A stretch of DNA of 11,794 nucleotides from Methanobacteriota archaeon (GTDB lineage Archaea > Halobacteriota > Bog-38 > Methanoflorentales > Methanoflorentaceae): assembly GCA_003170935.1 (NCBI GenBank), contig PMYA01000185.1:1-11794 (forward strand). The letters run 5' to 3'. The translations under genes and the position numbers were made by a program. The first letter of the stretch is position 1; every line of letters starts with the position of its first letter. The notes below the pieces were generated by a model, which was not told the DNA's origin, searched no databases, and was given only the letters and a program-made list of their open reading frames with translations. Below are positions 2,320 to 11,422 of the stretch, in pieces.

Positions 2320-3786
2320 TCAGAACGAGTCGTCTTGTGCGTAGCTTCTTCCCAACTTCAGTGCAATTTCTGCCTGTTTTAATTCACGTCCAAGGTACCC
2401 TGCGTGTGCTGCAGTTGATACTAGGTTGAGTTCAAGAATGGCAGTGAGAATTCTCTCTGCAGAATCACCTTGGATAGTTGTTCCAGAGTCGTGTCGTGCA
2501 TAAATAATTCCTTCTTTGATACCGATCACGAAGTTGCCTGAAGGGTCCGGCGAAAAAAATTCAGGACCGAAGTCTTTTGCATCAAAAACGTTTCTACTAG
2601 TGATTTCGTATTCTGGTCTGCGCTTGCGTTCTTTCAGCTTGAGCAGATCGATGCCCAGATCCTTCGGCGACCCCTTTTTGAACTGTGCCAGCTGCATCAT
2701 TTGAGCGGCGGTCTTAAGTTCTCCCACGCTGCCTCTTGCTTTGTCGCTGTGTTCAGGTGTAAAGAGCATGCTCACTCCAAGTTCCATAGCTAAGCCGGCG
2801 AGCAAAGCATTAGCGCCGACTGAGTCGGCTTCCATAAGTTCAACTATGTTACCCACGCCGAGAAAAAGCGGCACACCGCTGAGGGATCGCACGCGGCGGT
2901 ACTCTGCGAGTGAATCGGCGGCCCCTACGCCAATAGGGTAAAGCACAGGATCAGCTAAGATTTTCCTGATTTGGTAACTGCGTGCAAGAGCTACGGAAGA
3001 GCATACATCGCCATTATGGGGTAGAACGACAGTCGCAATGTCTTTCTCAGCAATTAAAGGGCCGATCTCGCTTGCGTTTTCCGCTGTAAATGAAAGAACT
3101 AGCTCCGCTCCTGCGTCTATTCCAGCGCAGATAAGTGCTGGATCTAGGCTGTCAACGCTAGTTGCGACATTGTACTTGCTCGTTACTTCATTGACTTTAG
3201 CAAAGGTCTGTCTTACCTCTTTTTCTGTGGTTCCAGCGGGTATGCCAACGTCGATTATGTCAGCGCCGTTTCGTATGTGTCGCTCAGCGATGTGTTTAGA
3301 GTCTACAAAAGGCGCGTCTATTATCTCGGCAAGTACCTTCATTCGAGAATTACCGCCTATTTTTTTGTCACGAATCTTGAAATCATAGGTGGCGGATTTT
3401 TCCAGTTTTATTAACAACTGCAAAGCGTCATTTTTGCGTTTTTCCAGAATGATCCGATCTGCCGGTTCATTTAGTGATAGCTGAGAATCATCGAGGGAAT
3501 CTAGTACTAAGCTTAGATCATAGGCTTGCTTTGGGCCCAGAACAATGTTTGTGTTTAGTTCTTCAGCAAGAGATCTAAACCCTGCTGCGTTCGAAGAACC
3601 CGGGATCAAGATCATATCATACTCACGAGCTAGCTTTTTTATATGTTCTACGTACGCTTTCTTTAACAAAGGCGGGGTCATTAACGCCGCAACGTCGATA
3701 TCTAAAATAAGCACGTCCGCAGCTTGACCTACGCTTTCTTTGACGACGCGTTCGGCGCAGCGACCGGTTGCTACCAGCACTCTCAT
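2320..3786 (-). CDS. Dihydropteroate synthase-related protein (H4MPT-linked)
   Basis: A 488-residue member of the archaeal dihydropteroate synthase-related family (TIGR00284 type). That family occurs in archaea lacking an ordinary folate-type DHPS and is thought to serve methanopterin synthesis. Residues 1-140 are the N-terminal domain specific to this family. Residues 148-340 form a TIM-barrel pterin-binding region, with GADIIDVG (174-181), SVDSLDPA (210-217) and ADPVLYPIGVG (278-288). The C-terminal domain carries the family signature HAGYLGRELKQAEIAL (461-476). The exact reaction is not settled; joining the pterin to the ribofuranosylaminobenzene side chain or a related step is an inference from homology. 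The ATG at 3786 is preceded by GGTGA seven bases away. It diverges from the PHP gene and converges on thrS, so it is transcribed alone, but it lies next to other methanopterin genes. Confidence 0.88.
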   Translation of the reverse strand: MRVLVATGRCAERVVKESVGQAADVLILDIDVAALMTPPLLKKAYVEHIKKLAREYDMILIPGSSNAAGFRSLAEELNTNIVLGPKQAYDLSLVLDSLDDSQLSLNEPADRIILEKRKNDALQLLIKLEKSATYDFKIRDKKIGGNSRMKVLAEIIDAPFVDSKHIAERHIRNGADIIDVGIPAGTTEKEVRQTFAKVNEVTSKYNVATSVDSLDPALICAGIDAGAELVLSFTAENASEIGPLIAEKDIATVVLPHNGDVCSSVALARSYQIRKILADPVLYPIGVGAADSLAEYRRVRSLSGVPLFLGVGNIVELMEADSVGANALLAGLAMELGVSMLFTPEHSDKARGSVGELKTAAQMMQLAQFKKGSPKDLGIDLLKLKERKRRPEYEITSRNVFDAKDFGPEFFSPDPSGNFVIGIKEGIIYARHDSGTTIQGDSAERILTAILELNLVSTAAHAGYLGRELKQAEIALKLGRSYAQDDSF

Positions 3787-3842: not shown

Positions 3843-4508
3843 ATGCGGCTCGACCTGCACGTTCACTCTGAATATTCGCCTGACTCACACAGCTCAATTG
3901 AAGCAATATTAAAACAAGCGCAAGAAGTAGGTCTTGATGGCATCGCAATTACTGATCACAACTCAGTGCTGTCTTTTTCTGTAGCATCGAAACTTGCTGA
4001 AGAGCTCGGACTTGATCTAATCATAGTACCCGGTGCTGAAATTTCGACGAGGGAGGGTCATCTGATCGCACTTGGTACAATCAACCTCTTGCCTTCCGGT
4101 ATACCTGCTAATGAAGTAATAGAACATGTTCACGATAACGGTGGAATCGTAGTCGCCCCACACCCTTATGCGATCTTTAGAAAAGGCATCCGAAACCTTC
4201 AAGACATACGATTAGACGCTGTGGAAACGTTCAATTCGAAACAACTGTTTGGATTAGCAAACTATCTCGCTAATCGTTCTGCTCGTCAGCTGAACCTTGG
4301 GGTGACAGGCGGAAGCGATTCACACAAAGTAGAAACGATTGGTTTTGGTTACACCGACGTGAATATTGCAGACGGCGCAGATGTGGAGCGTATTCTGCAA
4401 GCTATAAAGAGTTGCAGATCGCAATCAAAGGGCCGGGCTTCGCCGCGTCTGCGATCAGTTGGCCACTCGCTCAAAATTCGTATGGGGAACTATAAAAACA
4501 GTAGGTAA
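3843..4508 (+). CDS. PHP-domain metal-dependent phosphoesterase
   Basis: A 221-residue PHP-family protein. This fold hydrolyses phosphoester bonds with a tri-metal centre. The ligand set appears complete: H6 and H8 in HVHSEYSPD, D38 and H39 in ITDHN, E66 in GAEIST, H73, H107 in APHP, then D159 and H161 in GGSDSH. It resembles the stand-alone PHP proteins common in archaea, some of which act on nucleotides or small phosphate esters; the substrate cannot be read from sequence. The last 30 residues form a basic tail after the fold, without a recognised domain. The gene appears leaderless and diverges from the DHPS-related gene. Whether it acts on a methanopterin intermediate is only a guess from position. 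Confidence 0.85.
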   Translation: MRLDLHVHSEYSPDSHSSIEAILKQAQEVGLDGIAITDHNSVLSFSVASKLAEELGLDLIIVPGAEISTREGHLIALGTINLLPSGIPANEVIEHVHDNGGIVVAPHPYAIFRKGIRNLQDIRLDAVETFNSKQLFGLANYLANRSARQLNLGVTGGSDSHKVETIGFGYTDVNIADGADVERILQAIKSCRSQSKGRASPRLRSVGHSLKIRMGNYKNSR

Positions 4509-4555: not shown

Positions 4556-5257
4556 TCAAACCATCGCCCAAAGTGCATCTTTGAGCTCAGTCGGGTCGTT
4601 GAGAACTGTGAGTCCTGACTGCTTCAGTAGAGCTTTGACATTGTTTTTATCGATCTCACGTACCGCGAGGTTTACTGACCCTCCGATAATCGCATCAGAA
4701 CGGCACACGTCCTTACACAGCCCACAACCGTTGCATCTAAGGTAGTCAATTTGCTCGTCAATCGCGTCGTTTGGGCAAGCTTGTGCGCATTCACGACATT
4801 GAATACAAAGCTCCCTATTTATGAAGTACGGCACAGGGCTTTCCACCCTCCCCTCAATATCAACAGGAAGTATAAAAACTACAATACCGGCCTTCAGTGC
4901 GTGTGCAGCTGCATTTGTGACTAGTGAGTCTGCTATGCCGTGGGCTATCTTGGCAACTGAGTTAGATGTAGCTGGGGAAATGAACAAAGCGTCATAGACA
5001 CCGCGTGAGAAGCGACCGGTTTTGGGATAGCTCCAACCTTGCTCTGTTTCGAGTATGATCTCTTCCATATATCCACCAGGAGAGACAGTACGCAAGTGCT
5101 GAAAAAGCCCGTAAACGCGTGTTACTTCTTGTGCTGCGCGCGAGACAAACGAAGTGATGTTGACACGATCAAACTGGAGTCGCTTGAGTTCAACGAATAA
5201 CTCAAAGCTATCCTTTAAGTAATGGCCGGCACCAGTGATGCCCCACGCAATTTTCAC
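4556..5257 (-). CDS. dmrX: Dihydromethanopterin reductase (acceptor), flavin/iron-sulfur
   Basis: Last gene of the minus-strand run. This 233-residue protein matches the MJ0208/DmrX family. A Methanosarcina member of that family reduces dihydromethanopterin to tetrahydromethanopterin, the last step in making the C1 carrier. Residues 1-145 form a UbiX-like flavoprotein domain that should bind FMN, with GITGAGHYL (6-14) and SPATSNSVAKIAHGIADSL (94-112). A two-cluster ferredoxin domain follows, with C151/C154/C157/C161 and C175/C178/C181/C185, each CxxCxxCxxxC. The first set is followed by the usual proline, the second by arginine (R186). The start is GTG, supported by AGGAGG six bases away. It follows DUF447 by 49 bases, so co-transcription is likely. 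The archaeoflavoprotein AfpA family is an alternative, but AfpA is not known to me to carry this ferredoxin tail. Confidence 0.88.
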   Translation of the reverse strand: MKIAWGITGAGHYLKDSFELFVELKRLQFDRVNITSFVSRAAQEVTRVYGLFQHLRTVSPGGYMEEIILETEQGWSYPKTGRFSRGVYDALFISPATSNSVAKIAHGIADSLVTNAAAHALKAGIVVFILPVDIEGRVESPVPYFINRELCIQCRECAQACPNDAIDEQIDYLRCNGCGLCKDVCRSDAIIGGSVNLAVREIDKNNVKALLKQSGLTVLNDPTELKDALWAMV

Positions 5258-5306
5258 TCTTTTCCTCCTATTGCTGTGATCTCGATTCGACAGCGAGACC
5301 TACGAT

Positions 5307-5861
5307 TTAAGCTAGGTATTCTTTTAGCACGTGAAATGCTTCTAACTCCGGTTTTCCGCCACATTTTCTAATGATGCTCTCATAGTGCGGCATGCATTCT
5401 AGGTATTTTGGATCTTTAAGCGTTTTATATCGGGTTGCGTGAATTGTTGCTTCAAGCACTGCATAGAATGCTCGGTTGACTGGCGATATAGGCCTTTGCA
5501 GTATAACAGACCTTGTCGGATGAAGTTTTACGAGAGCGGTCTTTTGAGTCGATCTCTCTTGAATTGTACATGCGAATTCAACCCATGCGTAAGCAGCGGT
5601 GAGAACCGGCGCGTCTTCATCTGAGCGAAATAACGAAGGATCTACGTCATCAAAGGCCGTTTTTACGTAAAGTAGTGGGTCTAAAACAAAGTTTGCAACC
5701 ATCTCATTATTCTTTTTGACGTTCAGGAAAGTGTGACTATCTTTATAAATCAAAGCGTAGAGGAAGCCGCGATTTATGATGCCCATGGGTGCCGCATTGG
5801 GCCGATCGTTGCGCGTGGTTGCTATGACCTCGGAGATTCCCTCGCGAAATTCGATCTCCAT
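5307..5861 (-). CDS. DUF447 family protein, FMN-binding split-barrel fold
   Basis: A 184-residue protein of the archaeal DUF447 family, which has the FMN-binding split beta-barrel fold seen in flavin reductases and flavoredoxins. The N-terminus (residues 6-30: EGISEVIATT, NAAPMGII) and the region around NEMVANFVLDPLLYVKTAFD (51-70) are typical. The function is unproven. The family repeatedly sits beside H4MPT genes in archaea and in H4MPT-using methylotrophic bacteria, so a role in that pathway is likely. Its ATG overlaps the CitG-like stop by one base (TGATG), which implies translational coupling. GGAGG lies 12 bases upstream, inside the preceding gene, a rather long spacing. Confidence 0.85.
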   Translation of the reverse strand: MEIEFREGISEVIATTRNDRPNAAPMGIINRGFLYALIYKDSHTFLNVKKNNEMVANFVLDPLLYVKTAFDDVDPSLFRSDEDAPVLTAAYAWVEFACTIQERSTQKTALVKLHPTRSVILQRPISPVNRAFYAVLEATIHATRYKTLKDPKYLECMPHYESIIRKCGGKPELEAFHVLKEYLA

Positions 5862-6727
5862 CAGAACTTATATCCTCCCAAGAGCGTAACGAACAACGAT
5901 CCGATCACGAGATCTGCCGTCGTGCCAGGGTTGATGCGCCGTGCGATGAGCTCTTCGTTAAAGTCTTCAATATTGCCATGTTCCAGTACGTGTGTCGCCT
6001 TTGCCGAAACCTGAAAAGCTACCCGAGAACCAAATTTCTTAGCCACGAGGGTGTCGGGCTCCTCGCTAAGAAGGCGAAGAAACAGGCACACGATCGACTT
6101 GTTTAGGTTATGTCCCGATTCGTCGAACTGTCTGAAGAGTTCAGCGCCGTGAAAGATTCGCGGAAACCCTTCAATCCATTCCTTAGCTATCGTATCGTTT
6201 GAGCTAGATATTTCCATAATATCGAAGAGCGTTAGTTGTTGCTTTTGAATAGTACGCACGGAATCAGGATCATTTATGTCTAGATAATGCCGTTCTTGGA
6301 CGCGCACGTTGACGCTCCGAAATGATTTGTAAAACCGTACGGCGTCCGTACTTGTTGTGCTTCTCACTATATCCACTGCGTTTTTCCTAAGCTGAGGTAT
6401 CGTGCTGCTTCTGCTTGCCGCGGCACACAACGGAATCAACAGAAGGATGGCACCAAAGTGGCAGTTTCCTGCCCTTTGCCACGTAGCGCTAGCTTGCACG
6501 GCATTTAAAATCAAATCACCAATATTATTTCCCTCCGATGCTGCTTTTCTGAACACTGGAAACATGCCTGCAGCCGACCCGAGGAAATGCTCGTAGGTTA
6601 AATCTTCAAAGTCGTGTGTTCTGTCTACATTGCCTGGTTTTGGTGTCGCGGAGACTTCGAGCAACATTGCAAGCTCCGCGGAACCGGCTATGAAGTCTGT
6701 TTCGTACATGTTGAAAAGGTGTTTCAC
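5861..6727 (-). CDS. CitG-like triphosphoribosyl-dephospho-CoA synthase family protein
   Basis: A 288-residue member of the CitG/MdcB family. Bacterial CitG joins dephospho-CoA to the ribose of ATP through an alpha-glycosidic bond, releasing adenine. Family motifs are visible: TPKPGNVDRTHDF (28-40), GNCHFGAILLL (87-97, equivalent to the usual NTHKG segment but with C and F substituted), and INPGTTADLVIGSLF (265-279). No citrate lyase or malonate decarboxylase gene is nearby, so the classic role is unlikely. Archaeal copies sit with methanopterin genes, and a ribosylation step in the side chain is a reasonable inference. The GTG start overlaps the upstream stop by 4 bases (GTGA) and lacks a Shine-Dalgarno sequence, suggesting coupled translation. 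An internal ATG at 6709 is the alternative. Confidence 0.85.
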   Translation of the reverse strand: MKHLFNMYETDFIAGSAELAMLLEVSATPKPGNVDRTHDFEDLTYEHFLGSAAGMFPVFRKAASEGNNIGDLILNAVQASATWQRAGNCHFGAILLLIPLCAAASRSSTIPQLRKNAVDIVRSTTSTDAVRFYKSFRSVNVRVQERHYLDINDPDSVRTIQKQQLTLFDIMEISSSNDTIAKEWIEGFPRIFHGAELFRQFDESGHNLNKSIVCLFLRLLSEEPDTLVAKKFGSRVAFQVSAKATHVLEHGNIEDFNEELIARRINPGTTADLVIGSLFVTLLGGYKF

Positions 6728-7830
6728 TCAAGATTTCGACAAGCGAGAAATGTGTCCGCGAGCTGTTTTTTGAGTTGCATGTACTCAACATCAGAAAAGT
6801 CTAGGTCTTGTAAACTGCCGTCTCTCCAAGGACAAGGCCTCGTGATCTTACAACACCAAACCATGCTGCCGAAGCACGTATGTGGGCCCTCACCGAGCTT
6901 TGTTTCCTTAAAGCTCTCTTTAATAAGGACATAATCTTCCTTTGTAATGCCCGCTCTTTTCAGAACGTACTGGAGGGGGCAATCCTTCACAGGCATACAA
7001 CAATACGCCAACCCTCGCAGGTCCCCACTGGCACAGATGTGTTTTGGCGCGTTATACCACCCAACTGTTTCTTGATAAAACTGAACTTCAGCTAGTATTT
7101 CCTGTAAAATCGTGTCGCCGGCAATTGCAGCGCGGGCTACTGAAACATAGTCTGCACCCATCGAGAACATTTTGTGAGCGCTTGTATAGTCTACTATAGA
7201 ATTGTTGGCGATGATTTTGAGCGCGGTAGCATCTCGTATCTTCTTGACTAACGTAGGCCCCGAATCCATCATGTCGATATGGATTACATCGGCCCCTGCC
7301 TTGTCTATGGTCCTAGCAAGCTCGACGTCGCTGACCACTCCTGAGCGAACCTTCACAGATAAAGGCACGTCTGTCTGTTTTATCTCCTGAATCCAAGTGG
7401 CAAGCTTGGGTAGATCTCGCGTCAGACATTGACCAGCGCCTATAGCTTCCATCTCAGGCTGCCTGCAGTGCGCATTCAGTTCAAATATTGCCCCTTTTTG
7501 ATGGGCCAGTTCAGCGATTTCGAGCAGAGGTTCTAACGTGGTCGATCGTGCATTTACTCCCGCAATTATTTCAGTCGCATTCATGACCCCAAGCTCGTTT
7601 TTAATAACGGGGGTTGGGTCATCATACGCGAATTCGCTTCGCCCTTTCTTAACCAGCTCTTTTGCGGCTATGATGGTTGCCTCATCGAGATTATAACCAC
7701 CTAAAAATGCGAGCCCAGCACTGCGCGTTATGGCAAAAGAACTGTTCGTCAGTCCTGCCATTGACGCGAGCACTAGAGGGTTCGGTATCTTAATGTCTCC
7801 GATTGTCAGGTTATAGTCTATTTGCGGCAA
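6724..7830 (-). CDS. DUS-like TIM barrel fused to methanogenesis marker 9 domain
   Basis: This 368-residue protein has two parts. Residues 1-250 form a flavin-binding TIM barrel of the NifR3/dihydrouridine synthase type (PNPLVLASMAG 17-26, LSVKVRSGV 157-165, GADYVSVARAAIAGD 225-239). Where true tRNA dihydrouridine synthases have an NxGCP catalytic loop, it reads NAHCRQPEM (119-127), so tRNA reduction is doubtful. Residues 262-335 are the methanogenesis marker 9 domain with all eight core cysteines: C266, C277, C278, C284, C319, C326, C327 and C333. These include the paired motifs YCCMPVKDC and WCCKITRPC, which suggest metal or Fe-S binding. The fusion is a known architecture; the function is unknown. 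The TTG start is supported by GAGG six bases upstream. It heads the CitG-like/DUF447/dmrX run. Confidence 0.9.
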   Translation of the reverse strand: MPQIDYNLTIGDIKIPNPLVLASMAGLTNSSFAITRSAGLAFLGGYNLDEATIIAAKELVKKGRSEFAYDDPTPVIKNELGVMNATEIIAGVNARSTTLEPLLEIAELAHQKGAIFELNAHCRQPEMEAIGAGQCLTRDLPKLATWIQEIKQTDVPLSVKVRSGVVSDVELARTIDKAGADVIHIDMMDSGPTLVKKIRDATALKIIANNSIVDYTSAHKMFSMGADYVSVARAAIAGDTILQEILAEVQFYQETVGWYNAPKHICASGDLRGLAYCCMPVKDCPLQYVLKRAGITKEDYVLIKESFKETKLGEGPHTCFGSMVWCCKITRPCPWRDGSLQDLDFSDVEYMQLKKQLADTFLACRNLE

Positions 7831-7920
7831 GATTAGCCTCTATCGTCTCGAGTTTATTTTTTTAGGGCGCTGAGGTAACTGGGCAACAATGCATCCTTGT
7901 TTCATTATTGTAGTTCGCTG

Positions 7921-7937
7921 ATATTTAATCTTACTTT
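7921..7937 (-). promoter_or_regulatory. TATA/BRE candidate before the marker-9 gene
   Basis: Read on the minus strand, AAAGTAA followed by GATTAAATAT resembles an archaeal BRE plus TATA box. A transcript would start near 7899, giving a leader of about 70 bases to the TTG at 7830. The surrounding 136-base gap after cofD (7831-7966) is wider than other gaps in the run. The downstream genes may therefore have their own promoter as well as read-through from cofD. A second A/T-rich stretch at 7851-7861 lies too close to the ribosome site. Confidence 0.4.
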
Positions 7938-7966
7938 GCTGAAAGGCGCAAACTTTGACTACGCCC

Positions 7967-8878
7967 TCAGTAATGCTGAGCAAGTAATTGTAGGATCTTT
8001 GCAGCAAGTGCGTTGCTTTGTCTTCTGTCTGACATGATAGTATTCGTGTGCATCACTTCTACTTCGTCGGGCAAATCGCTCTTCGAGACTGCAAAGTCTG
8101 CATTGTCGACGATTAAGATATCCAAAAAGTCGGAGTAGAACTCGGCAACCCCAATAGAACTAACCGGAAGTCCCACAGATTCCATAAACTTTCGTGCTGG
8201 TCCACTAACGGGTTCAGTTCCCACTATCGGACTGACTGCGACGACGAATCTATCCTTAAGAGCTTCTCTCATACCATTTACGCGAAGAATGGGCCCAATG
8301 CTTGAAATTGGGTTCGATGGCCCGATGACAACAGCATCGTTCTCCTCTAGGGTGGTTTTTACCTCTGTCGTCATTGCACTCGTCTCACAATTGACTTGTG
8401 TAACGGCCGGCAGCTGCTTGTGTTTAATAAGAAAATCTTGGATATGCATCTCGCCTTCGTCCGTTTGGATAATGGTAGGAACGAAGTCGTTCGTCATCGG
8501 GAGGACTCTGGAAGACACACCGAACGAAGCGCACAGGAGGAGTGTTGCTTCAGTCAAAGACACGCCCTGTCGCAGAAGGTCGGAACGGAAAATATGAGTC
8601 GCCCGATCAAACTCCCCTATAATAAGCCTCTCTTCGTGTCCTCGGCTGACTAGCGCTTCGTGGGTTAAGAACGTATCGTCCCTTATGCCCCACCATCGGT
8701 CGGTTGTAACTCCTGCTATAGTATAGATGACTGTGTCGATATCTGGACAAACAAGGTTACCAGAGGCCCAAATATCGTCTCCAGTATTTGCAATAACGGT
8801 CAATTGTTTTTTAGGACAGAGGCTAAGCAGCCCGCGAAGCAACTTCGGAGTGCCTGTCCCCCCAGACAGCAATAGCAA
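7967..8878 (-). CDS. cofD: 2-phospho-L-lactate transferase (F420 biosynthesis)
   Basis: A 303-residue CofD. It transfers the activated lactyl phosphate moiety (lactyl-diphosphoguanosine, or a phosphoenolpyruvate equivalent as found in other lineages) onto the deazaflavin Fo, giving F420-0. Signature motifs are LSGGTGTPKLLRGL (4-17), NTGDD (31-35), GEFDRATHIFRSDLL (88-102), GPSNPISSIGPIL (186-198) and SPIVGTEPVSGPARK (216-230). Length and motif order match the archaeal family, and no key residue appears lost. The start is TTG, fixed by a strong GGAGG six bases upstream and by the glycine-rich loop starting at once. It is first in the minus-strand run of C1-cofactor genes, so F420 and methanopterin synthesis may share control here. 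A weak TATA-like stretch (ATTTATTT, about 8912-8919) could be its promoter. Confidence 0.96.
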   Translation of the reverse strand: MLLLSGGTGTPKLLRGLLSLCPKKQLTVIANTGDDIWASGNLVCPDIDTVIYTIAGVTTDRWWGIRDDTFLTHEALVSRGHEERLIIGEFDRATHIFRSDLLRQGVSLTEATLLLCASFGVSSRVLPMTNDFVPTIIQTDEGEMHIQDFLIKHKQLPAVTQVNCETSAMTTEVKTTLEENDAVVIGPSNPISSIGPILRVNGMREALKDRFVVAVSPIVGTEPVSGPARKFMESVGLPVSSIGVAEFYSDFLDILIVDNADFAVSKSDLPDEVEVMHTNTIMSDRRQSNALAAKILQLLAQHY

Positions 8879-9278: not shown

Positions 9279-9632
9279 TTGTTTCGTGATACCTTGGTAT
9301 TGACCAGAAGCGTAGGCTCAACAGATTTGAGGATAGATGTGACCCATCTGGGTCGAGATTTGCTTGTCACGCTCGTAGGGGGCGAAGCGCACGTAGGCGC
9401 CGTCGCGTTGGGCGGATTTCACACGCGGTCGTACGCTTCAGTGATAACTGTGCCTGACCATCGGGATGACGTAATAGCTAAAGAAGCTGCGTCGTTAATT
9501 TCAAAAGAGCTGAATTGCAGCTGTGTAGTAATAGTTGGAATTCACGTCAGCAATGCATCCGAGAAGCAAATCAGCCAGATTGTTGAAGCATCATTTACGC
9601 TTATTAAAGAACTTATTGAGGCACTTAAATGA
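9279..9632 (+). CDS. Prenylated-flavin chaperone, LpdD-like
   Basis: A 117-residue protein that fits the LpdD-like family, small partners of UbiD-type decarboxylases named after the gallate decarboxylase subunit D of Lactobacillus. They are thought to help deliver or mature prenylated FMN. Visible features are LVGGEAHVGAVALG (32-45) and the C-terminal segment from PDHRDD (59-64) through IVGIHVSNASEKQI (85-98), a pattern I associate with this family. The start is TTG with AGGAG seven bases upstream; no nearer in-frame ATG exists. Its TGA overlaps the ubiX ATG (ATGA), so translation is coupled. It is first in a three-gene operon with ubiX and ubiD, which supports the role. The mechanism is inferred, not shown. 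Confidence 0.75.
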   Translation: MFRDTLVLTRSVGSTDLRIDVTHLGRDLLVTLVGGEAHVGAVALGGFHTRSYASVITVPDHRDDVIAKEAASLISKELNCSCVVIVGIHVSNASEKQISQIVEASFTLIKELIEALK

Positions 9633-10183
9633 CGATAACAGTGGCGATTACCGGCGCAAGCGGAGTGCAATACGGCGTTCGGCTACTCGAAGCCTTAAGG
9701 GATTTGCAGGTTGAAACGCAGCTCATCGTGACCAAGAGTGGTCAAGATCTCATGAGCATTGAGACTCAACATAGTTTGAATTACGTCACTTCGCTGGCCC
9801 GCCAGACTTATGAAGAAACAGACTTATCTGCGCCCATTGCCAGCGGATCTCACATTAGCGATGGTATGGTGATAATTCCATGCAGTATGAAGACGCTTGG
9901 AAGCATCGCACACGGTATTTCTTCAAATCTTGTGACTCGTGCGGCTGATGTGTGCTTAAAGGAAAGAAGAAAACTGGTATTAGTGGTGCGCGAGACGCCA
10001 CTTAGTGGGATTCATTTGAACAATATGTTGAAATTGTCACAATGTGGGGCGGTGATAATGCCTGCTAGTCCCGGGTTTTATACACGTCCAGCGACGATCG
10101 GAGAGCTCATCGATACCCTAGTCGCTCGCGTGCTCGATCTGATGCAATTGGATCATTCGCTTTCGCGGCGATGGGGGGACTAG
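9629..10183 (+). CDS. ubiX: Flavin prenyltransferase UbiX
   Basis: A 184-residue UbiX/PAD1-type enzyme. It attaches a dimethylallyl group, usually from dimethylallyl phosphate, to reduced FMN and closes a fourth ring, producing the prenyl-FMN cofactor of UbiD. The family motifs are clear: ITGASGVQYG (7-16) for the FMN phosphate, ASGSHISDGM (71-80), PCSMKTLGSIAHGISSNL (84-101), RETPLS (121-126), and the signature PASPGFYTRPATI (145-157) with the active-site tyrosine and arginine region. Length is normal. The ATG is preceded by GAGG seven bases away and overlaps the LpdD-like stop; the stop abuts the ubiD ATG with no gap. The cofactor should therefore be made at a fixed ratio to its user. Confidence 0.95.
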   Translation: MTITVAITGASGVQYGVRLLEALRDLQVETQLIVTKSGQDLMSIETQHSLNYVTSLARQTYEETDLSAPIASGSHISDGMVIIPCSMKTLGSIAHGISSNLVTRAADVCLKERRKLVLVVRETPLSGIHLNNMLKLSQCGAVIMPASPGFYTRPATIGELIDTLVARVLDLMQLDHSLSRRWGD

Positions 10184-11422
10184 ATGAGAAGTTTTGTTCA
10201 GTATCTAATGGACTCTGGGCAACTTGAGGTCATTACGAAGGCCGTTTCACCTATCTTAGAGGCCCCGCGTTTGGCCCGTGGACGAGGACCCGTTCTATTC
10301 GAGCGCGTCGGCGGTTGTCGTGCTATTGTAAATCTTATCGGCTCACGTGCGCTGCTTGCCCACGCATTGAGGGTTAACGAACTAGGACTCATCAGTAGAC
10401 TTCTGAGCACAGTACCTGAAGGAAAAACAACGGTGGAAGATTTTGCTTGGGACGTTGACCGCACTCCCGATTTGAGCAAGTTGCCTGTTATGAAGTTCTT
10501 TGAGCGAGATGGTGGACCTTACATCACAGCAGGCGTTCTAGTGGTAAAATATGGCCAAAGAGTAAACGCTTCCGTTCATCGAATGATGGTCCTCGACAAC
10601 ACGTCACTTGCCGTGAGGCTTGTTCCCCCGCGTCACGCATACTTGATGTATAAAGCGAGTGTGAAAAAAGCGGAGCCTCTAAGCGTCGCTATTGCTATCG
10701 GCGTCGATCCTATCACGCTGTTTGCTACAACAACGAGGGTGCCATGTGGTTTAGAATTCAATTACGCTGCGGCACTGAAGGGCGAAGTGCAACCTCTTAT
10801 CGAATGCGAAAATGGAGTTCCAGTTCCGCCGAGCGAAATTGTATTAGAGGGGCAAATAAGCCCAACAAGAACGGCAAAGGAAGGTCCGTTTGTAGATCTC
10901 ACAGGCACTTATGACCTAGTGAGACAGGAACCAGTCATCGAACTAACAAGACTGGTTTCAGTTAAAGATCCGATCTATCATTCCATATTGCCGGCCGGCG
11001 TCGAGCATTCACTTTTGATGGGCATTCCCTATGAGCCACGGATATACAAAGCATGTCAAGACGTCACGAAAGTCAAGAATGTGATATTGACTGCGGGGGG
11101 CCGGCACTATCTGCACGCTATCATTCAGATAGAGAAACAGACTGAAGGGGATGCAAGAAATGTTATGATGGCAGCGTTCGCATCTCACACTAGTTTGAAA
11201 CACGTCGTTGTTGTCGACGAAGATATTGACATTTACGATATGGCTGATGTGGAATTCGCAATTGCCTCGCGAGTCCGAGGGGACACAGATATTATGATAG
11301 TACCTAACGTTCGCGGATCGTCTCTTGATCCCCGAGCACAAAGCGACGGTACAACAACGAAAGTTGGCATAGATGCAACTGCTCCGCTTAGTGACCGTTG
11401 GAAGTTTGAGAAGGTTACTTAA
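10184..11422 (+). CDS. ubiD: UbiD-family decarboxylase, probable anhydromevalonate phosphate decarboxylase
   Basis: A 412-residue prenyl-FMN-dependent decarboxylase, the compact length usual for archaeal UbiD. Residues aligning with the metal-binding triad of the fungal homologue Fdc1 are N128, H151 and E191. The catalytic Glu-Arg-Glu/Asp set corresponds to R133, E233 and D238, within NASVHRM and KEGPFVDLTG. The valine at 237 replaces the glycine often found there. In several archaea a UbiD of this kind converts trans-anhydromevalonate 5-phosphate to isopentenyl phosphate in the archaeal mevalonate pathway; that is the likeliest role. Decarboxylation of an aromatic acid for quinone or catabolic use cannot be excluded. 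It is last in the operon with its cofactor maker and starts directly after the ubiX stop, with a G-rich stretch five bases upstream as a weak ribosome site. Confidence 0.92.
   Translation: MRSFVQYLMDSGQLEVITKAVSPILEAPRLARGRGPVLFERVGGCRAIVNLIGSRALLAHALRVNELGLISRLLSTVPEGKTTVEDFAWDVDRTPDLSKLPVMKFFERDGGPYITAGVLVVKYGQRVNASVHRMMVLDNTSLAVRLVPPRHAYLMYKASVKKAEPLSVAIAIGVDPITLFATTTRVPCGLEFNYAAALKGEVQPLIECENGVPVPPSEIVLEGQISPTRTAKEGPFVDLTGTYDLVRQEPVIELTRLVSVKDPIYHSILPAGVEHSLLMGIPYEPRIYKACQDVTKVKNVILTAGGRHYLHAIIQIEKQTEGDARNVMMAAFASHTSLKHVVVVDEDIDIYDMADVEFAIASRVRGDTDIMIVPNVRGSSLDPRAQSDGTTTKVGIDATAPLSDRWKFEKVT

Follow-up and report, generated by a model that had tools for sequence, protein, structure and literature searches.

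Genes at the locus

The window, that is, the whole stretch of 11,794 nucleotides that was analysed, carries on its minus strand a row of five genes, in the order cofD, MM9 (methanogenesis marker 9), CitG-like, DUF447 and dmrX. All five were present by profile match (Table 1), as the original prediction had described. The 4-nt overlap that it had reported between MM9 and the CitG-like gene was read at the junction as GTGA; CitG-like and DUF447 overlap by 1 nt (TGATG), and a 136-nt gap separates cofD from MM9, both on one strand. The dihydropteroate-synthase-like gene of the window adjoins the cluster in Ca. Mnemosynella too (L040/L052/L053). DmrX, the window neighbour of MM9, is an Fe-S flavoprotein of H4MPT synthesis according to PMC6193120, yet its fold is unrelated to that of the MM9 barrel.

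Table 1. Genes, modules and motifs of the window
Feature	Positions	Strand	Evidence or remark
cofD, F420 side-chain transferase; next gene upstream of MM9	7967..8878	-	TIGR01819, 340.5 bits (cut-off 257.45)
MM9, 368 aa; FMN-type TIM barrel plus C-terminal eight-Cys domain	6724..7830	-	TIGR03277, TIGR00736, AlphaFold2
Barrel module of MM9, MJ0144/archaeal-Dus type	7111..7761	-	
NAHCRQ motif, residues 119-124	7459..7476	-	Cys122 occupies the position of the catalytic cysteine in Dus
KxR motif, residues 160-162	7345..7353	-	K160, R162 invariant in alignment A3
HxD motif, residues 184-186	7273..7281	-	H184, D186 invariant in alignment A3
C-terminal marker-9 domain, two Cys4 units	6745..7062	-	TIGR03277 match G000:C132:6745-7062
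Cys4 unit 1: C266, C277, C278, C284	6979..7035	-	
Cys4 unit 2: C319, C326, C327, C333	6832..6876	-	
CitG-like protein, 288 aa; H4MPT-type associate	5861..6727	-	PF01874, 256.4 bits; PDB relative 3h9p
DUF447 protein, 184 aa	5307..5861	-	PF04289 and PF20766; PDB relatives 2nr4, 2iml
dmrX, dihydromethanopterin reductase family	4556..5257	-	TIGR02700, 277.6 bits (cut-off 251.35)
PHP-domain protein, recurrent convergent neighbour	3843..4508	+	PF02811
Dihydropteroate-synthase-like protein	2320..3786	-	TIGR00284, 296.4 bits, over cut-off

Two modules of MM9

MM9 has the look of a fusion between a flavin enzyme and a domain with eight cysteines. It scores 149.9 bits against TIGR03277 (above the curated cut-off of 96.2) and 144.4 bits against TIGR00736, the MJ0144 family (below the curated cut-off of 218.7, a value exceeded in only 19 of the 196 genomes). 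In the AlphaFold2 model (mean pLDDT 94.9), the predicted barrel folds like the FMN enzymes DHODH, DPD and Dus, a class whose members reduce a C=C bond adjacent to a carbonyl. The ‘archaeal Dus' motif set of NxHC[KR], KxR and HxD is present, with A120, H121, C122 and Q124 invariant among the 37 sequences of alignment A3. PMC3674756 describes an ‘archaeal Dus' form of the NxGCP motif, and places HxR in other Dus where archaeal Dus have HxD. By these motifs (N-A-H-C-R/K, KxR and HxD; TIGR00736) the MM9 barrel resembles the MJ0144 or ‘archaeal Dus' proteins, whereas their haloarchaeal and Archaeoglobaceae members are barrel-only and the window MM9 adds the eight-Cys domain.

All eight Cys of the C-domain are invariant among 38 aligned sequences and, together with the over-cut-off score, are shared with the methanogenesis marker 9 domain (TIGR03277). 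By hhalign, one half of the domain matches the other with a probability of 95% and E 2.6e-8, pointing to a tandem duplication, and a Foldseek search with its model returned no significant PDB fold match. Dihydropyrimidine dehydrogenase (DPD) combines an FMN domain with a C-terminal Fe-S domain, and MM9 shares the FMN-barrel fold with it, but the Cys spacing of the DPD Fe-S domain presumably differs from that of the MM9 Cys domain.

The two modules are separable. The barrel occurs alone in Archaeoglobaceae and haloarchaea, and the C-domain alone in Methanoliparia-like, Syntropharchaeia-like and Asgard archaea, its stand-alone relatives being listed as Asgard, Hadarchaeales, Undinarchaeales and others. 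Moreover, the MM9 proteins of Methanothrix-like genomes (f19) have a decayed barrel, with HCRQ missing from all eight, and a full set of Cys. The C-domain was found in Ca. Mnemosynella (G148), a genome without an McrA match, and the Asgard and other archaea with a stand-alone C-domain are, to our knowledge, mostly without MCR. Thus the marker 9 domain is not methanogen-specific and extends beyond MCR-bearing archaea.

Association of the barrel with cofD

Among the 31 genomes with a haloarchaeal-type barrel, the barrel gene lies directly behind cofD in 29 (28 as same-strand neighbours by listed coordinates and G046 by sequence); the two exceptions are G098, for which the cofD position is not listed, and G133 (f25), in which the barrel stays with CitG-DUF447 and cofD is on a different contig. 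The two genes overlap by 1 nt in L133, L136, L152 and L153 and by 4 nt in L135 and L170, and are 1 nt apart in L134 and L154 (in L132 and L137 over-long ORF calls obscure the junction); GGAGGT stands ahead of the start in five of eight junctions inspected. The pair persists in G038, G179 and G194, where CitG has moved elsewhere. The 29 genomes are not 29 independent events, as their operons share one ancestry. In the window's genus, with seven genomes, cofD directly precedes MM9 in the five loci read. Outside these two groups, within the archaeal phylum surveyed, the barrel was beside cofD in none of the 67 barrels with a listed cofD position (0 of 23 in Archaeoglobaceae, 0 of 25 in f2 (Methanosarcinaceae) and 0 of 19 in six other families).

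All 126 barrel genomes carry cofD, which is a weak test because cofD is nearly universal (189 of the 196 genomes). Conversely, 63 of those 189 were without a TIGR00736 match at E<=1e-12, so the barrel falls short of the presence in every cofD genome that an F420 enzyme might show. Of 14 control genomes, M. jannaschii, H. volcanii and M. acetivorans matched both cofD and TIGR00736, and no other control matched either. A complete haloarchaeal genome (G018) has cofD-CitG-DUF447 and no barrel match, and in G020 cofD abuts CitG-DUF447 with no barrel; these arrangements suggest that the cluster mixes two pathways.

Association with H4MPT-type genes

The original prediction placed MM9 in the making or maturing of H4MPT or a related pterin. 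MM9 and H4MPT-type genes are indeed linked as neighbours: CitG follows MM9 on the same strand within 300 nt in 81 of the 122 fetched MM9 loci (at least four genomes being counted twice in this set), usually with DUF447 and often with dmrX, a recurrence that is not chance. The row cofD-MM9-CitG-DUF447-dmrX recurs in four other fetched loci of the genus (L042-L045; two more genomes of the genus are outside the fetched loci), and MM9-CitG-DUF447 is also found in Ca. Mnemosynella and, among methanogens, in Methanosarcinaceae and several further families. Of the 97 barrel genomes for which a CitG position is listed, 83 have barrel and CitG at most 2.2 kb apart on one strand, including 14 of the 17 haloarchaeal-type ones.

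H4MPT synthesis includes the reductive opening of a ribofuranosyl ring to deoxyribitol and an alpha-ribosylation (CitG-like), steps for which we know of no assigned enzyme. MM9 could thus be a flavin redox enzyme of H4MPT synthesis that, for example, opens this ring together with the CitG-like and DUF447 proteins. Besides the CitG adjacency, this unlikely alternative draws on the dihydropteroate-synthase-like gene of the window, on Ca. Mnemosynella, which keeps MM9-CitG-DUF447-PHP-dihydropteroate-synthase-like with no McrA match, and on G133, whose barrel sits with CitG and not with cofD. However, RFAP synthase, CitG and DUF447 are all without a match in three haloarchaeal genomes of 99% completeness (G008, G059 and G118), which yet keep the barrel right behind cofD with its NAHCRQ, KxR and HxD motifs (barrel dN/dS between G008 and G059, 0.16); the barrel is therefore not lost along with these genes. 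In the other direction, S. acidocaldarius, in addition to the three controls with cofD, matches RFAP synthase, CitG and DUF447, whereas neither cofD nor the barrel reached the applied thresholds in it (CitG matches in the E. coli control too). Genes of this trio without a barrel match also occur in some Archaeoglobaceae and in many ANME-1-like genomes. None of the nine Archaeoglobaceae barrels with a listed CitG position was near CitG, and MM9 is away from CitG in 25 Methanoperedens-type and 10 ANME-2-type loci.

The retention of cofD-barrel in the three genomes without H4MPT-type genes favours a role in F420 synthesis. A link to an F420 gene and retention after the loss of H4MPT-type genes were found in haloarchaea and the window's genus, and F420 is the better-supported pathway for MM9 than H4MPT. 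The original reading of a cofactor operon therefore stands as to coupling with cofactor genes and is not supported as to H4MPT as the pathway, cofD having been noted there and left unweighed. It had also suggested a flavin and Fe-S redox enzyme, in agreement with the flavin-type barrel, the probable metal module and the cofactor-gene neighbours of MM9.

A candidate reductase of the F420 linker

The origin of the reduced lactyl linker of archaeal F420 is described as open in PMC8498797, PMC7253369 and PMC6450877: the first two call the source of archaeal 2-PL unknown, and the third postulates an unidentified archaeal reductase, ‘CofX', its authors reporting that they looked near cofE. With a gene directly behind cofD, and with a barrel-only form in genetically tractable haloarchaea, the linker question becomes testable.

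MM9 may be a two-module flavoprotein of F420 assembly and a candidate linker reductase, a reading to which we give somewhat less than even weight. It builds on the predicted fold class, the conserved motifs and Cys, the separable modules, the gene order and the way the barrel stays with cofD in genomes without H4MPT-type genes; the FMN, residue roles, metal content, substrate and direction of electron flow of MM9 are what we infer from these. The barrel would bind FMN, Cys122 of NAHCRQ would be the proton donor, and the conserved His, Arg and Lys would anchor both the phosphate of the flavin and a substrate that is anionic, while two electrons from the reduced flavin would pass to an enolpyruvyl C=C, the future lactyl linker of F420. 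The substrate might be dehydro-F420-0 made by CofD, giving F420-0, or PEP, ahead of CofC/CofD, giving 2-phospho-L-lactate; of these two, the dehydro-F420-0 variant is disfavoured by the preference for 2-PL that archaeal CofC/CofD pairs show in vitro (PMC8764529). In methanogens the duplicated Cys4 C-domain would carry metal, most likely Fe-S clusters, and pass electrons to FMN, on the model of the DPD C-terminal clusters; in haloarchaea and Archaeoglobaceae the barrel would work alone. CitG, DUF447 and dmrX would serve H4MPT-type pterin synthesis, sharing the operon with MM9 and not its reaction. More tentatively, the marker-9/MJ0144 barrel at large could be the enzyme behind the reduced F420 linker of archaea (‘CofX' or a PEP reductase), with the C-domain as a new duplicated Cys4 electron-entry module.

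If so, marker 9 would gain a function, the ‘methanogenesis marker' would turn out to combine two modules that are each more widespread, and the source annotations (tRNA dihydrouridine synthase, hydrolase) would be corrected. As a PEP reductase making 2-phospho-L-lactate, it would render the lactate kinase CofB, never identified, unnecessary. Where the barrel is decayed or missing, as in Methanothrix-like and ANME-1-like lineages, F420 would then be made by another route or with another linker, for example 3PG, a possible alternative that requires no reduction.

The reaction proposed for MM9 in the CofD-product variant, reduction of dehydro-F420-0 by FMNH2, is that of the C-terminal reductase of FbiB, which has a nitroreductase fold fused to a ligase (PMC6450877), whereas MM9 is modelled as a TIM barrel near cofD; by its predicted fold MM9 is thus not a reductase of the FbiB type. 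None of the 196 genomes has that FbiB domain (TIGR03553) over the cut-off, and weaker, sub-cut-off nitroreductase-family matches in 157 make another reductase possible.

Counting against an F420 role are the barrel-free third of cofD genomes, the missing adjacency in other families, the arrangements in G133, G018 and G020 and the degenerate barrel of Methanothrix-like genomes, Methanothrix being an F420-containing genus according to PMC8498797.

Other readings of the protein and the cluster

The Cys domain might itself be the working part, for MCR activation or metal handling, with the barrel as an accessory that decays in some lineages, as the Methanothrix-like proteins with all Cys kept would suggest. 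A stand-alone C-domain lies directly behind mmp17-mmp7 in an f7 genome (L034; gene sizes in L037 are alike), another near MJ0865-like radical SAM and LarC genes in an f15 genome (L033), and 82 of the 88 C-domain genomes are McrA-positive by hand count. This reading is nonetheless quite improbable given the stand-alone domains of many Asgard and other archaea, the McrA-negative Mnemosynella and the 23 McrA-positive genomes from which the domain is absent.

Alternatively, the cluster could be an inherited block of unrelated cofactor genes in which MM9 does something else. In L155 and L162 cofD abuts CitG-DUF447 without a barrel, and in L143 a Fic-domain gene sits between cofD and CitG, where MM9 would be; the idea is highly doubtful, since haloarchaeal loci preserve overlaps of 1-4 nt and the window's genus, which is a deep lineage of its own, has its genes in the same order.

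Slightly less credible again is a true RNA dihydrouridine synthase, as the original prediction had judged of tRNA modification: the barrel has motif and fold kinship to Dus, its motif type is classed as archaeal Dus by Kasprzak et al. (PMC3674756) and Methanococcoides burtonii tRNA contains D (PMC9176250), but its NxGCP and HxR motifs are altered, it is coupled to cofD/CitG, H. volcanii tRNA is reported without D in PMC2584109 while Haloferax matches TIGR00736, and six of the eight f2 (Methanosarcinaceae) genomes tested carry a separate canonical Dus at 248-287 bits.

Gene order in the window and its host genome

The original prediction placed marker 9 (MM9) in a cofD-MM9-CitG-DUF447-dmrX row, and all five genes and their order were confirmed on the minus strand, together with the 4-nt MM9/CitG overlap (GTGA). 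The remaining junctions are 136 nt for cofD/MM9, a 1-nt overlap (TGATG) for CitG/DUF447 and 49 nt for DUF447/dmrX. The host assembly (1.79 Mb, 77% complete, 186 contigs) harbours McrG, McrA, Mch, RFAP synthase and CofD. Within our sample, its only relatives nearer than phylum level belong to its own genus, thus it represents a deep lineage of the Methanosarcina/Archaeoglobus phylum.

Genes of the marker-9 region in the window
Gene	Position	Strand
PAC-like gene, UbiX and UbiD (beside cofD)	9279-11422	
cofD	7967-8878	minus
MM9	6724-7830	minus
CitG-like	5861-6727	minus
DUF447	5307-5861	minus
dmrX	4556-5257	minus
PHP gene	past dmrX	plus
DHPS-like gene	past dmrX	minus

The PAC-like/UbiX/UbiD group adjoins cofD in the window's genus, and UbiX, accompanied by either UbiD or the PAC-like gene, is also near cofD at loci L143 (genome G058, family f16) and L162/L165 (G020, G138); these genes perhaps encode a prenyl-FMN decarboxylase of cofactor synthesis.

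Modular architecture of marker 9

A total of 196 genomes of the phylum were searched, with identical handles in every search. The TIGR00736 barrel (E<=1e-12) was found in 126 genomes and the TIGR03277 C-domain in 89 (79 above cut-off; of the others, 9 are short ORFs that stand alone and fall below it, and 1 is a weak fragment with stops). Both occur in 71 of the 126 barrel genomes, including G040, where the two halves are on separate contigs. None of the 55 barrel-only genomes (23 Archaeoglobaceae, among them Ferroglobus placidus and A. veneficus; 31 haloarchaeal-type; and G030) has a TIGR03277 match, and none of the nine C-domain-only genomes has a TIGR00736 match. The haloarchaeal label is based on GC, on barrel pI, on the Haloferax control and on the fact that no McrA match exceeds the cut-off; GC of the measured loci is 0.64-0.72 (family f25, at 0.56, only resembles this type) and barrel pI is 4.4-4.8, except at L137 (pI 11.4; over-long ORF). 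In a tree of 49 barrels, the haloarchaeal ones are near Methanomicrobia-type fused barrels (support 93/75 and 98/90), and their line has possibly lost the C-domain.

The fetched loci gave 125 C-domain proteins, of which 111 are joined to a full barrel carrying the active-site motif HC[RK]Q, 8 stand alone and 6 are degenerate (L019 and L024 were added separately). Among the best 120 of 198 matches, C-domains without barrel are named for Asgard, Hadarchaeales, Nezhaarchaeales, Verstraetearchaeota and Undinarchaeales. In family f19, probably Methanotrichaceae, none of the eight genomes with a C-domain has a TIGR00736 match at E<=1e-12 and HC[RK]Q is absent from all eight proteins; from its sequence, this MM9 would be a fusion retaining a decayed enzyme half. 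These f19 loci (L006, L007, L009, L011, L012, L017, L019 and L024) have lost HCRQ and kept the C-domain and the CitG-DUF447 neighbours.

Stand-alone C-domain genes were also seen directly after mmp17 and mmp7, two MCR-region marker genes (L034 in G007), and beside genes for methionine aminopeptidase, LarC and a radical SAM protein resembling the MJ0865 MCR glutamine methyltransferase (L033); L037 (G037) and L038, respectively, resemble these rows by gene size only. L034 and L037 belong to f7, which is probably Methanoliparia-like (several of its genomes have Mcr together with a divergent McrA copy), and L033 and L038 to f15, which like f28 appears Syntropharchaeia-like; f5 appears ANME-1-like.

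Neighbourhood link to CitG and DUF447

The 122 fetched MM9 loci comprise 42 by handle and 80 named, with at least four genomes counted twice. CitG is next on the same strand (<=300 nt) in 81; three have DUF447 with CitG undetected (one of them, L024, does carry CitG), one meets a contig edge, and 37 have neither gene next to MM9 (25 Methanoperedens-type and 10 ANME-2-type by our own grouping, partly from layout, plus JdFR-42 and L046). In 83 of the 97 barrel genomes with listed positions, CitG lies no more than 2.2 kb from the barrel and in the same orientation. Thus the predicted link of marker 9 with CitG and DUF447 extends across many families. Ca. Mnemosynella (G148) has no McrA match and keeps the MM9-CitG-DUF447-PHP-DHPS-like row; five remnant markers are reported for JdFR-21 (PMC9635834).

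At three Methanoperedens-type loci (L054, L058 and L101), MM9 is oriented divergently from a series of genes that resemble the fpo operon in size (order by size only). At L143, a Fic-domain protein gene (6933-7856) takes MM9's place between cofD and CitG in an otherwise window-like row (CitG-DUF447-dmrX-PHP-DHPS-like).

Coupling to cofD

Listed coordinates put the barrel gene behind cofD, in the same orientation, in 28 of 31 haloarchaeal-type genomes, and the sequence adds G046; the exceptions are G098 (no listed cofD position) and G133, where cofD is on another contig and the barrel stays with CitG-DUF447. Ten such junctions were read: overlaps of 1 or 4 nt occur in six and a 1-nt gap in two, the other two giving no value because of over-long ORF calls; GGAGGT precedes the barrel start in five of eight printed junctions. 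CitG is close behind the barrel, in the window's order, in 14 of 17 haloarchaeal-type genomes with a listed CitG position, and in G038, G179 and G194 it is relocated with cofD-barrel still together.

Matches to RFAP synthase, CitG and DUF447 are all absent from G008, G059 and G118 (each 99% complete), the only barrel genomes lacking all three. The cofD-barrel pair and active-site motifs are retained there, and the dN/dS of 0.16 (G008 versus G059) indicates, at the sequence level, purifying selection on the barrel. The job of the barrel therefore does not depend on the H4MPT-type set. Mch and CofD are also present in the three genomes, which thereby offer a natural experiment on the RFAP synthase/CitG/DUF447 product in haloarchaea.

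The 126 barrel genomes have cofD in 126, RFAP synthase in 122 (E<=1e-5, some weak), CitG in 123 and DUF447 in 123. Among 14 named controls, cofD and TIGR00736 match in the same three species (M. jannaschii, H. volcanii and M. acetivorans); S. acidocaldarius matches RFAP synthase, CitG and DUF447 with neither cofD nor barrel, and E. coli CitG alone.

Candidate roles

Marker 9 is more plausibly a flavoprotein built of modules and linked to F420 assembly; its methanogen version lies in one operon with H4MPT-type genes. An FMN-type barrel (DHODH/DPD/Dus class) beside cofD would be a candidate for either of two missing reductions, dehydro-F420-0 to F420-0 or PEP to 2-phospho-L-lactate (2-PL), and we tentatively favour such an F420-linker reductase. 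Methanogen MM9 resembles dihydropyrimidine dehydrogenase in module order, a barrel followed by a C-terminal Cys module, which suggests that electrons may enter through the latter. No genome of the 196 has an FbiB-type reductase over cut-off; 157 have weaker matches of the nitroreductase family. PEP is reported to be usable by CofC/FbiD to give dehydro-F420-0, and a separate archaeal reductase, 'CofX', was predicted and sought near cofE (PMC6450877); the archaeal CofC/CofD pairs tested were specific for 2-PL (PMC8764529), whose source is termed unknown (PMC8498797, PMC7253369).

Several results weigh against an F420 role. Co-occurrence of cofD and barrel tells little since cofD is present in 189 of 196 genomes, and in 63 of these TIGR00736 finds nothing. 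Outside the haloarchaea and the window's genus, by listed cofD positions, which leave out 30 (seven in that genus), the barrel is near cofD in 0 of 23 Archaeoglobaceae, 0 of 25 Methanosarcinaceae (f2) and 0 of 19 genomes of six other families. In G018, cofD-CitG-DUF447 is present but no barrel match was obtained. F420 is present in Methanothrix (PMC8498797), yet barrels in Methanothrix-like f19 are degenerate. The haloarchaeal cofD-barrel operons represent a single inheritance, which reduces their weight.

An H4MPT role, which the CitG/DUF447 adjacency favours, is improbable given the three genomes without the H4MPT-type genes. Literature searches, covering few subscription papers, found none for 'methanogenesis marker 9' or 'MJ0144' (earlier proposals may exist), none linking H4MPT with DUF447 and none linking triphosphoribosyl-dephospho-CoA with tetrahydromethanopterin; marker 9 is missing from the core proteins in Table 5 of PMC4153887, as far as its labels tell. 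Regarding RNA modification, the Haloferax control has a barrel match, and dihydrouridine is reported to be absent from H. volcanii tRNA (PMC2584109). A separate canonical Dus (248-287 bits) was found in 7 of 29 genomes tested, namely six of eight Methanosarcinaceae and G190.
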